Below, in pieces: positions 4,047 through 7,903 of a stretch of DNA of 64,000 bases. The notes beneath the pieces are model-generated. The model was not told where the DNA came from, did not search any database, and saw only the letters and a list, made by a program, of their open reading frames with translations. Made by a program: the position numbers and the translations under genes. Position 1 is the stretch's first letter; each line of letters opens with the position of its first letter. The stretch is from NCBI GenBank assembly GCA_020718845.1, contig DYRG01000001.1, forward strand, positions 124,001 through 188,000, read 5' to 3'. Origin of the DNA: Thiomargarita sp. GTDB lineage: Bacteria; Pseudomonadota; Gammaproteobacteria; Beggiatoales; Beggiatoaceae.

Positions 4047-4105
4047 TCATGTAATATCACCATATAACGCAAAAATATCAAAAGATTGCGTGGTACAATT
4101 TGCGA

Positions 4106-5854
4106 ATGAACACGTTATTTTCAAAAATACCGATTTTAGGGATCGCGGCGTTTAGCGGGACGGGTAAAACCACGCTTTTAACGCAAATCTTGCCGCTATT
4201 GTGCGAGAAAGGGTGGCGAATTGGCATTATCAAACACACGCATCATGGGTTTGATATGGATAAACCCGGCAAAGATAGCTATCGTTTGCGAGAAGCGGGC
4301 GCGGCGGTGGTGACGGTTGCGTCGGCGCAGCGGTGGGCGTTATTGCAGGAAACCGACGGGCAAGCCGAACCTTTGTTGCAAAATGTCTTACCGCACGTTG
4401 CGTTGTGCAATGTCGATGCGATGTTGGTCGAAGGCTTTAAACATCAACGTTTTCCGAAACTTGAACTTCACCGCCCGTCTTTAAATCATTCTTTTTTATA
4501 CCCTCAAGATAATTCCGTGATTGCGATTGCCAGCGACGAACATTTAGATGTTCCGTTGCCGTTGTTGGATTTAAATAATCCCGTGCAAATCGCTGATTTT
4601 ATTATTAATTATTTCAAAGGATTTCAAATGCCAAGCTGTTGTGATGAAGAGGATTGCGGGGTGTTAACCGTCGATCAAGCCTTAGTTCGTTTAAAAAAAT
4701 CTGTGCAACCCATTGAAGATATTGAAAATTTACCACTTCGCACCGCATTAGGTCGAATTTTAGCAGAAACCGTGATTTCAAAAGTGAACGTTCCCGCGCA
4801 CATTAATTCGGCAATGGATGGATATGCGATTAAATTCAATGATTTAGATAAACAACCCTTAAAAGTCATTGGCACGTCGTGGGCGGGCAAACCCTTTGAT
4901 TTTCCTGTTAAAAATGGCGAATGCGTGCGAATTATGACGGGCGCAAAAGTTCCCGCCGACACCGACACGGTAATTATGCAAGAACACGTCGACCGCGATG
5001 GCGATCTCATTTCCATAAAAAAGCAATATAAACAAGGAGATAACGTTCGATTCGCGGGCGAAGATTTGGCGATTGGCGATGAAGTTTTAATTTCAGGCAA
5101 AAAATTAAATCCTGCGGACATCGGACTTTTAGCGTCTTTAGGCGTGAGTGAAATCAAAGTTAAAAGAAAATTACGGGTCGCGTTCTTTAGCACGGGAAAT
5201 GAATTAAAATCGGTCGGAGAAATGCTCGGCGACGGCGATATTTACGATAGCAATCGTTACACCTTATTTGCAATGCTTGCAGAAATGGGCGTTGAAATGA
5301 TCGACTTAGGCGTAATCCAAGATGATAAAGAAAAAATTCGTCAAGCATTTCAACAGGCTGCAAATTCCGCCGATGCGGTAATTACCACTGGCGGAGTTTC
5401 TATCGGAGAAGCCGATTTTGTTAAAGAAATCTTAGAACAAGAAGGCAAAATTAATTTCTGGAAAGTGGCGATGAAACCCGGCAAACCTTTAGCCTTTGGT
5501 GAATTAAAAAAAGCCAAGTTCTTTGGATTACCGGGAAACCCCGTTTCTGCAATGATTACCTTCCAACAATTTGTCAAACCCACCTTACAAAAAATGACTG
5601 GTCAATTAGAAGAACCAGCTTTACGTTTTGAAGCAATAGCTGGAAGCAACTTTAAGAAAAAAGCGGGAAGAATGGAGTTTCAACGCGGGATTTTAAAAAT
5701 GGAAGAAAATCAGTGGAAAGTCTATTCAACAGGAAATCAAAGTTCTGCGGTTTTAAGTTCGATGAGCAAAGCAAATTGTTTAGTTTTATTAACCGCCGAT
5801 TCGACGGGTGCTCAAATTGGCGATTCTATTCTCATTGAATTACTTAACTTTTAA
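4106..5854 (+). CDS. MobB-MoeA fusion: molybdopterin-guanine dinucleotide adaptor plus molybdopterin molybdenumtransferase
   Basis: 582 residues from the ATG (a TTG two codons upstream is possible). The first ~174 residues are MobB-like: P-loop AFSGTGKTTLL and IGIIKHTHHGFDMDKPGKDS, as in the GTP-binding partner of MobA. From PSCCDEEDCGVLTVDQAL onward it is a complete ~409-residue MoeA, with the SAMDGYA loop, IMTGAKVP, STGNEL, TTGGVSIGEADFV and GLPGNPVSA. MoeA inserts molybdate into adenylated molybdopterin. Each half has the length of its stand-alone relative. No ribosome site precedes the first ATG, whereas a good one precedes the in-frame ATG at 4628 (separate entry). The 5' part is visibly more GC-rich than the rest. 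Confidence 0.93.
   Translation: MNTLFSKIPILGIAAFSGTGKTTLLTQILPLLCEKGWRIGIIKHTHHGFDMDKPGKDSYRLREAGAAVVTVASAQRWALLQETDGQAEPLLQNVLPHVALCNVDAMLVEGFKHQRFPKLELHRPSLNHSFLYPQDNSVIAIASDEHLDVPLPLLDLNNPVQIADFIINYFKGFQMPSCCDEEDCGVLTVDQALVRLKKSVQPIEDIENLPLRTALGRILAETVISKVNVPAHINSAMDGYAIKFNDLDKQPLKVIGTSWAGKPFDFPVKNGECVRIMTGAKVPADTDTVIMQEHVDRDGDLISIKKQYKQGDNVRFAGEDLAIGDEVLISGKKLNPADIGLLASLGVSEIKVKRKLRVAFFSTGNELKSVGEMLGDGDIYDSNRYTLFAMLAEMGVEMIDLGVIQDDKEKIRQAFQQAANSADAVITTGGVSIGEADFVKEILEQEGKINFWKVAMKPGKPLAFGELKKAKFFGLPGNPVSAMITFQQFVKPTLQKMTGQLEEPALRFEAIAGSNFKKKAGRMEFQRGILKMEENQWKVYSTGNQSSAVLSSMSKANCLVLLTADSTGAQIGDSILIELLNF
4616..4630 (+). promoter_or_regulatory. Internal ribosome-binding site and ATG for a stand-alone MoeA
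   Basis: AAAGGA at 4616-4621 lies six bases before an in-frame ATG at 4628-4630, exactly at the MobB/MoeA domain boundary. It may start translation of MoeA alone (409 residues) from the fused message. The junction could also be a relic of two formerly separate genes. Confidence 0.5.
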
Positions 5855-5916
5855 TTCTTTTTTTATTTCTAAGTGCATAGGAACGAGTTAAGAATGGAAT
5901 CTAAAGAACAGAAGAA

Positions 5917-5942
5917 CCCGATAAGCCTTAAAACCTATCGGG
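5917..5942. terminator. Hairpin after mobB-moeA
   Basis: CCCGATA (5917-5923) pairs with TATCGGG (5936-5942), with AGCC/CC bases between. It is followed on the plus strand by a pyrimidine-rich CTTCATTCTTTATTT. It lies between convergent genes and may stop transcription from both sides, though the T-tract is weak. Confidence 0.6.
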
Positions 5943-5975
5943 CTTCATTCTTTATTTAATAACAATTGACTTATC

Positions 5976-6191
5976 CTATCTCACTCGTTGGGACGTTATT
6001 CTAAGTCCTGCTGATTGAGATAATCTGAATGTTTTACGACATTTGGTACACTCAACAGTTTTATCTCTCATAGAAAAACATGTACCTGGTACAGGAATTC
6101 CTGGTAATCCTGCTTGCATTACTTCATCCGTTCCATCACCAAACGTTTGATCACAAGAAGGACAAGTTACCATAAGATCAAATACATACAT
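5976..6191 (-). CDS. Small zinc-ribbon-like protein, unknown function
   Basis: 71 residues from the ATG at 6191, which has GGAG seven bases upstream. The longer frame to 6242 overlaps the upstream gene and lacks such a site. The protein has CPSC near the N-terminus (Cys10, Cys13), a lone Cys38 and CTKC (Cys48, Cys51), so it could form one four-Cys zinc site. The middle is Gly/Pro-rich and the tail is basic. No family recognised. It follows the other Cys-rich gene by 17 bases, so it is the third gene of a small operon with 6209-6427 and the 23-residue lipopeptide. Confidence 0.65.
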   Translation of the reverse strand: MYVFDLMVTCPSCDQTFGDGTDEVMQAGLPGIPVPGTCFSMRDKTVECTKCRKTFRLSQSAGLRITSQRVR

Positions 6192-6208
6192 ATTTTTTCT
6201 CCATTTTA

Positions 6209-6427
6209 TTAAGGGGGATTTCGTATTGAATTTCCACCACAATTAGGGCAGAAAAACTGCTCGCCATTCCAAGGTTTGATAGCGGAATGCCAAACATGCC
6301 CGCAATATATGCAACCAACACCAAAAGCACCTGTTGAAGTGCATCTATTTACGCGGTTTGCCTCTTGTCCTGAAGTTCCTTGACCATAGGCAATCTCTGT
6401 TGGACTACCACAAACTATACACCCCAT
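6209..6427 (-). CDS. Small Cys-rich zinc-ribbon-like protein, unknown function
   Basis: 72 residues from the ATG at 6427 (MGCIVCGSP), which has GGAG seven bases upstream. Three C-x-x-C pairs are visible: CIVC (3-6), CIYC (39-42) and CPNC (60-63), plus Cys29 and HVWH after the second pair. The second and third pairs look like a zinc ribbon or rubredoxin-like knuckle pair. Not recognised as a named family. Its ribosome site begins right after the stop of the tiny lipoprotein gene, so the two are probably co-translated. Confidence 0.65.
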   Translation of the reverse strand: MGCIVCGSPTEIAYGQGTSGQEANRVNRCTSTGAFGVGCIYCGHVWHSAIKPWNGEQFFCPNCGGNSIRNPP

Positions 6428-6441
6428 AGGTAATCTCCTCG

Positions 6442-6513
6442 TTAGCAACAGCAAGCCGTGAGAGAAAAAACAACGACTGCACTTAAAATGATAAAATTCA
6501 TCACTCTTTTCAT
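6442..6513 (-). CDS. 23-residue lipoprotein signal peptide ending in Cys-Cys-Cys
   Basis: A short frame with ATG at 6513, AGAGGA seven bases upstream and TAA at 6442-6444. The product begins MKRVMNF, continues with a hydrophobic stretch (IILSAVVVFSL) and ends TACCC. That is a textbook lipoprotein signal peptide with lipobox L-T-A-C. Cleavage before the first Cys would leave a lipidated tripeptide Cys-Cys-Cys. It is followed at once by the ribosome site of the Cys-rich gene at 6209-6427. Known tiny lipoproteins such as entericidins are longer. Expression is inferred from the ribosome site and signal-peptide pattern only. Confidence 0.6.
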   Translation of the reverse strand: MKRVMNFIILSAVVVFSLTACCC

Positions 6514-6604
6514 GGTATAATCCTCTAAAATATTAAGGTGGTGAAATGATAATTTTGAAATTATCGCTTTTAATTCTAGGGAAACAATTTAATACTTAAC
6601 AGAG

Positions 6605-6637
6605 CCTACGGCGGAAGGTGTTTCCTATAACGGTAGG
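6605..6637 (+). promoter_or_regulatory. Possible hairpin in the leader of the XRE gene
   Basis: CCTAC (6605-6609) can pair with GTAGG (6633-6637), and an inner GGAA can pair with TTCC. It lies about 30 bases before the ATG of the regulator and could be an operator or leader structure. Weak call. Confidence 0.3.
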
Positions 6638-6664
6638 TATTTTTGAACTGGGAGGGTAGGTTTT

Positions 6665-7066
6665 ATGGAACTACATGAAATCATTGCTAAAATTCGTGAT
6701 GATAAAGATTTTTCACAAGAAGAAATGGCTGAACAATTGATGATGTCTATAAGCGGTTATTCAAAAATTGAACGAGGAAAAAGTGAACTTTCTTGTCCAA
6801 GATTAAAACAGATTGCTGATGTACTCGGATTAGAGCTAAAATTAGAACCAAAAGATTTATTGAACAAAAAAGAAAAAGCTATTTTTAATATTGCATCTTC
6901 TCATGATGAAAGTCATCAAAATACTTATTTCCAATCTTCTTCAAAAGACTTCGAACATAAGATAGAAAAACAGCAAATCATTATTGAACAAAAAGATAGC
7001 GAAATTACTTTATTAAAGCAACAAATTGAAGATTTACGATCAATGTTAAATTTTTTAAAGAAATAA
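6665..7066 (+). CDS. XRE-family transcriptional regulator with C-terminal coiled coil
   Basis: 133 residues. Residues about 5-62 form a Cro/C1-type helix-turn-helix (IIAKIRDDKDFSQEEMAEQL, ISGYSKIERGKSEL, LKQIADVLGLEL). A Ser/His/Gln-rich linker follows, then a predicted coiled coil from about residue 96 to the end (heptads in EKQQIIIEQKDSEITLLKQQ), suited to dimerisation. The ATG follows a strong GGAGG with nine-base spacing. It is divergent from the Cys-rich mini-protein operon, so it may control that operon and itself. No effector domain is present. Confidence 0.85.
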   Translation: MELHEIIAKIRDDKDFSQEEMAEQLMMSISGYSKIERGKSELSCPRLKQIADVLGLELKLEPKDLLNKKEKAIFNIASSHDESHQNTYFQSSSKDFEHKIEKQQIIIEQKDSEITLLKQQIEDLRSMLNFLKK

Positions 7067-7189
7067 AATTGAAGAAAAACTTGCTAGGCTTTTACTCAGA
7101 CGGTAATTTGAGGTTTATTTTCTTCGAAATGGCAATCGACAGCATCACTAATTTGGATTTGTAGTTCTTTAATTACTCTCGAAATAAAA

Positions 7190-7216
7190 AAGGGAGAAAG
7201 TTTCTCCCTTATTTGA
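7190..7216 (-). terminator. Rho-independent terminator of adk
   Basis: AAGGGAGAAA (7190-7199) and TTTCTCCCTT (7201-7210) form a ten-base-pair stem. Read on the minus strand it is followed by TTTTTATTTC, and it lies just after the adk stop. Confidence 0.85.
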
Positions 7217-7225
7217 AATGATTGA

Positions 7226-7903
<678 letters not shown>

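Follow-up and report, generated by a model that had tools for sequence, protein, structure and literature searches.

Can a lipoprotein signal peptide with only three residues behind it be a gene product in its own right, and what would such a gene do next to two small cysteine-rich genes? The question is raised by three short ORFs in a 64,000-nt stretch of the Thiomargarita sp. genome, the whole of which we refer to as the window. Based on our analysis, we give about even odds to a repressor-controlled operon of three lineage-specific orphan genes at this locus, in which a 23-residue lipoprotein precursor occupies a position that is held by exported proteins at related loci. The initial annotation of this DNA had described ORFs of 23, 72 and 71 codons in tight order, each with its own ribosome site, and this description proved accurate. 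The three ORFs are transcribed from the minus strand in the order 23-mer, 72-mer and 71-mer (Table 1), they are separated by gaps of 14 and 17 nt, and they are preceded by the ribosome sites GAGGA, GAGGAG and GGAG, respectively, each located 7 nt 5′ of the ATG. That annotation was silent on the strand and missed the divergently transcribed XRE regulator, which, together with a mobB-moeA fusion and adk, makes up the neighbourhood of the cluster. The mobB and moeA genes are seemingly fused into one ORF with a TTG start (positions 4100-5854 of the window).

Table 1. Features of the three-ORF cluster and its divergent regulator (positions in the window).
Feature	Position	Strand	Characteristics
23-codon ORF MKRVMNFIILSAVVVFSLTACCC	6442-6513	-	Predicted type II (lipoprotein) signal peptide, lipobox LTA/C
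72-aa Cys-rich orphan protein	6209-6427	-	Three C-x-x-C pairs, zinc-ribbon-like C-terminal half, without signal peptide
71-aa orphan protein	5976-6191	-	Two C-x-x-C pairs, resemblance to MJ0042-type zinc ribbons, without signal peptide
Terminator-like stem-loop, 13 pairs	5915-5944	-	Closes the three-gene unit
Palindrome GATAATTTTGAAATTATC, 8-bp arms, 2-bp spacer	6548-6565		Divergent intergenic region; candidate operator
Divergent XRE/Cro-CI-type repressor, 133 aa	6665-7066	+	HTH_3 and C-terminal coiled coil

The nucleotide-level signals around the cluster were evaluated against shuffled sequences where this was possible. The palindrome in the divergent intergenic region is a candidate operator, although suggestive only, as 10 of 500 base shuffles also gave arms of 8. 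In a promoter scan, the shuffled sequences gave more sites than the real sequence; therefore, promoter prediction carries no weight at this locus. No match was obtained in an Rfam search of positions 5800-7300, and the gene order around adk is not conserved within the taxonomic family. The codon usage of the three ORFs was indistinguishable from out-of-frame noise, which is a weak test for ORFs of such short length and odd composition.

The 23-mer consists of a charged start (MKRVMN), a hydrophobic core (FIILSAVVVFS) and an LTAC lipobox, and it thus presents the positive n-region, the hydrophobic core and the lipobox near residue 20 that characterize bacterial lipoproteins, the lipobox pattern used being [LVI][ASTVI][GAS]C. 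Cleavage between LTA and the first cysteine is predicted to leave a mature part consisting of Cys-Cys-Cys, as the initial annotation had read from the ORF when it called it a bare lipoprotein signal peptide. To our knowledge, a three-residue mature lipoprotein is far smaller than any of known size, which speaks against such a product. We scanned both strands for short ORFs of 18-40 aa with an ATG, an SD sequence, a signal peptide and a lipobox; the 23-mer was the sole match in 140 kb of DNA from its own genome, and one match was found in 445 kb from other loci. The latter, MYKTMMSMICILLFLSLKSLTGCLLKVITNQ at L114:831, is the only other short ORF with a signal peptide and lipobox that was found among relatives. 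The DNA motif for [AG]-Cys-Cys-Cys followed by a stop or Trp occurs a single time in the 2.98-Mb genome. A search of 369 genomes of the class with the lipobox-CCC motif retrieved 30 loci, including that of the 23-mer, and none of the others with a true stop was a convincing signal-peptide ORF. The nearest case (L187, in an unrelated genome of the class) is a hydrophobic frame that ends in MSVFAWSELLFSFWLLSFLPFSGCCC and a stop and has no positive start.

One of the closest known systems is LptM (YifL), a small bacterial lipoprotein whose short precursor likewise carries a type II signal peptide with a lipobox. The mature part of LptM is described as acting on the LptD/LptE translocon (PMC10567701), whereas the predicted mature part of the 23-mer is three cysteines and the conserved mature region is absent; the 23-mer scored 13.5 bits against the LptM model NF047847 of NCBIfam, below its cut-off of 27.7. 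A second comparison is with CruR/CutF (DUF2946), which, like the 23-mer, are small Cys-containing proteins of exported type that head an operon. As described in PMC9426467 and PMC9973294, CruR/CutF sense copper by means of CXXC or CxxxC together with a C-terminal stall motif that contains proline. The 23-mer contains no proline and has no Pfam match, which places it outside the DUF2946 family. Additionally, the ribosome tunnel is given a length of about 30 residues (PMC9973294), so the 23-residue chain would end inside the tunnel, and a nascent-chain sensor of the CutF type is unlikely. For the same reason, the chain would be complete before it clears the tunnel, and any membrane insertion must come after translation.

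The three terminal Cys codons admit another interpretation, in which the 23-mer is a regulatory leader. Under Cys-tRNA shortage, a ribosome would pause at this point and mask the ribosome site of the 72-mer; the 72-mer and 71-mer, with seven and five cysteines, respectively (12 in 143 residues), would thus be made only when cysteine is plentiful. The 3′ end of the ORF reads TGC TGT TGC TAA and is directly followed by CGAGGAG, so that a single base separates the stop from the ribosome site of the 72-mer, and a run of Cys codons upstream of Cys-rich genes is the arrangement expected of an attenuator ORF. Polycysteine short ORFs have been described as cysteine-responsive attenuators in mycobacteria (Canestrari et al. 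2020, cited in PMC9094748), and they share with the 23-mer the consecutive Cys codons just upstream of operon genes. The mycobacterial ORFs are described as leaderless, whereas the 23-mer combines a ribosome site with a complete signal peptide and lipobox. A leader needs no K/R-containing start, hydrophobic core or LTAC lipobox, all of which are explained by the position of an exported partner. Moreover, the fold of the putative leader RNA was not above that of shuffled sequences (z -0.8), and no terminator separates the 23-mer from the 72-mer gene. We therefore regard both the attenuator role and the cysteine-dependent production of the two downstream proteins as unlikely, and we return to the 23-mer as a lipoprotein precursor.

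The divergent regulator places this precursor in a wider context. The repressor scored 46.6 bits against HTH_3 of Pfam (cut-off 23) and belongs to this family. In its N-terminal HTH and its divergent orientation from an operon of small genes, it resembles the phage-type RstR/XRE repressors. It differs from RstR in its score (39.7 bits against NF041951, cut-off 80), which leaves it outside that family; in its setting, with mobB-moeA and adk as neighbours and no phage genes recognised around it; and in its paralogues, which pair with exported proteins. The repressor, along with its coiled coil, belongs to a set with 12 matches in its own genome. Of the 43 genomes of the taxonomic family, 35 carried at least one match, compared with 2 of 271 genomes outside the family (class sample, E<=1e-12). 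An alignment of 71 copies showed that the HTH, an EKNVFN motif and the coiled coil HELEK...EQ..KEI are kept. The set is multiplied within one family, with up to 21 matches per genome (L063-L082 and L092-L131), and some copies lie only a few kb apart. At many loci, AACCCAGAGTTATTAATNGCCTAACTCAGAGTAT or ACTGTGAGGATG sites recur in the last ~75 nt before the repressor ATG, often in pairs about 22 nt apart, and they are possibly an autoregulatory operator. The window carries at most a degenerate form of this site (at about 6620-6664).

In the genome of the 23-mer, a signal-peptide gene faces the repressor at 9 of the 10 other loci examined, the exception being L072. For seven of these nine genes, the start lies at a distance of 109-193 nt from the ATG of the repressor, and for the remaining two it lies at ~232 nt (L070) and ~283 nt (L063). 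The start of the 23-mer lies 151 nt from the repressor ATG, inside the 109-193-nt slot. Across the family, 34 of 70 other sampled repressor copies with enough upstream sequence have a near divergent ORF with a signal peptide. Compared with a background of 9 of 60 ORFs (15%), which was taken from the window alone, the binomial probability was 3e-7 for the own-genome loci and 4e-11 for the family copies (Fisher 4e-5); signal peptides were called here by a simple in-house rule, under which some membrane anchors pass as well. The own-genome partners include a PMP-repeat protein, a beta-propeller, an RCC1-repeat protein and a CHAP-domain protein; others have no Pfam name. A number of the partners are likely related secreted proteins with the pattern ..LLNLS/DATTM..VG..GENL.V.. 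(L065:4574-6351, L067:3495-4304, L110, L022, L023, L100 and L119); the two that were tested, those of L065 and L067, gave no Pfam match. The occupation of this slot by the 23-mer is the strongest argument for a real, exported product, and it supports that conclusion. The association of the repressor set with varied exported proteins is itself better supported than the micro-cassette.

The same observation bears on three further explanations. Since full-length exported proteins occupy this slot at other repressor copies, the 23-mer might be what is left of an earlier exported partner, a relic signal peptide that stayed when the zinc-ribbon genes took the place of the protein body, functionless and maybe still translated. 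The odd three-residue mature part and the lack of anything conserved in relatives agree with a relic, whereas the signal peptide, the lipobox and the ribosome site are all intact, the next ribosome site comes right after the stop, as in a working operon and not as in a truncation scar, and single-base changes in the T6 run yield no plausible fused exported protein. A relic origin is, in our estimation, improbable. A frame-error fusion of the 23-mer and the 72-mer was also considered, as an extra T in the T6 run joins the two frames, but the product would lack a cleavage site and the two ribosome sites are of good quality, and this possibility was set aside.

The presence of a divergent XRE regulator also recalls the enterococcal pheromones, of which cCF10 is described as the C-terminal heptapeptide of a lipoprotein signal peptide, acting through the regulator PrgX (PMC7117660). 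By analogy, the 23-mer would be the precursor of a secreted signal, and its released fragments would be sensed by the XRE protein. We regard this as highly improbable: no peptide-binding repeat domain was found in the regulator besides its HTH and short coiled coil, its paralogues face large exported proteins and not peptides, and no genes for import or processing were recognised in the vicinity. That the 23-mer, or all three ORFs, are chance frames and not genes could be argued from their very short length, their neutral codon usage and their lack of relatives. The tight order with ribosome sites, the zinc-ribbon spacing of the cysteines, the uniqueness of the 23-mer and its position in the slot together make this very unlikely. 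An exported 23-mer, encoded with the two zinc-ribbon-like proteins, is the interpretation that we favour.

The 72-mer and 71-mer are rich in C-x-x-C pairs and zinc-ribbon-like, as had been annotated. The 71-mer shares paired C-x-x-C with the MJ0042-type ribbons, from which it differs by a long insert between the pairs and by scores below the curated cut-offs: 24.7 bits against PF13717 of Pfam (E=2.2e-5, gathering score 30.3) and 19.2 bits against TIGR02098 of NCBIfam (cut-off 20.9), so that it falls outside both families as curated. The 72-mer showed a weak likeness to several ribbon families of Pfam and NCBIfam, below their curated cut-offs, and, among solved structures, to an HVO_2753-like zinc finger (E 0.0023). 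Single-sequence AlphaFold models were of low confidence (pLDDT 50 and 43) and unsuitable for a fold search. As neither protein has a signal peptide, both are probably cytosolic. The initial interpretation is therefore supported in part: it holds for the bare signal peptide, the operon-like order and the Cys-rich ribbon-like partners, whereas an envelope system for metal or redox handling stays conjectural, given this lack of signal peptides, the ribbon scores and the absence of a metal or redox gene next door.

No relative of the 72-mer or the 71-mer was found in the 43 genomes of the family, in plasmids, in phages or in viral contigs. The class-wide search (369 genomes) gave borderline matches only, in generic CxxC stretches; these weak matches fall in different genomes, and no gene pair was found. 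A match in a Muricauda contig lies inside a SusC/TonB-type receptor and was discarded as chance, as were phage matches in helicases and nucleases (E ~0.2-0.9). In a search of a defence library, the matches of the small genes were weak or absent. The initial annotation had suggested looking for the three-gene order in relatives and had named a lack of conservation of the 23-codon frame or its lipobox as grounds for refutation. The order was not found, and the frame was absent from the 43 family and 369 class genomes, so that, taken literally, these grounds apply; none of the genomes is congeneric, which makes this a weak test. As none of the three genes had a relative in these searches, there is no sign of selection. 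The micro-cassette is an orphan, restricted to one genome among those searched, in a sample without a second genome of the genus.

If the locus is an operon of this kind, it may work as follows. The XRE repressor would keep the divergent promoter shut, and derepression would yield one short mRNA across the three genes. The 23-mer would be inserted post-translationally via Sec/YidC, lipidated by Lgt and then cut by LspA before the first Cys, and the product would be a lipid-anchored Cys-Cys-Cys; if uncut, the 23-mer would instead be a small membrane peptide. The 72-mer and 71-mer would remain in the cytosol as co-produced small zinc-ribbon proteins that presumably bind zinc. As for the purpose of the operon, one would first think of sensing or buffering thiols or metals. 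A more specific proposal gives the lipidated Cys-Cys-Cys, nearly the smallest conceivable lipoprotein, a function as thiol or metal ligand at the membrane and has two dedicated zinc-ribbon proteins co-expressed in the cytosol under the control of a family-specific repressor; it seems to us rather doubtful.

The alternatives differ in what they would mean. A working 23-mer product would lower the known size limit of lipoproteins and would indicate that, in a Gram-negative bacterium, a signal peptide on its own can be what a gene encodes. Should the 23-mer instead be a cysteine leader, polycysteine attenuation would extend beyond mycobacteria. The repressor set that is multiplied within this family and faces varied exported proteins deserves a separate study.
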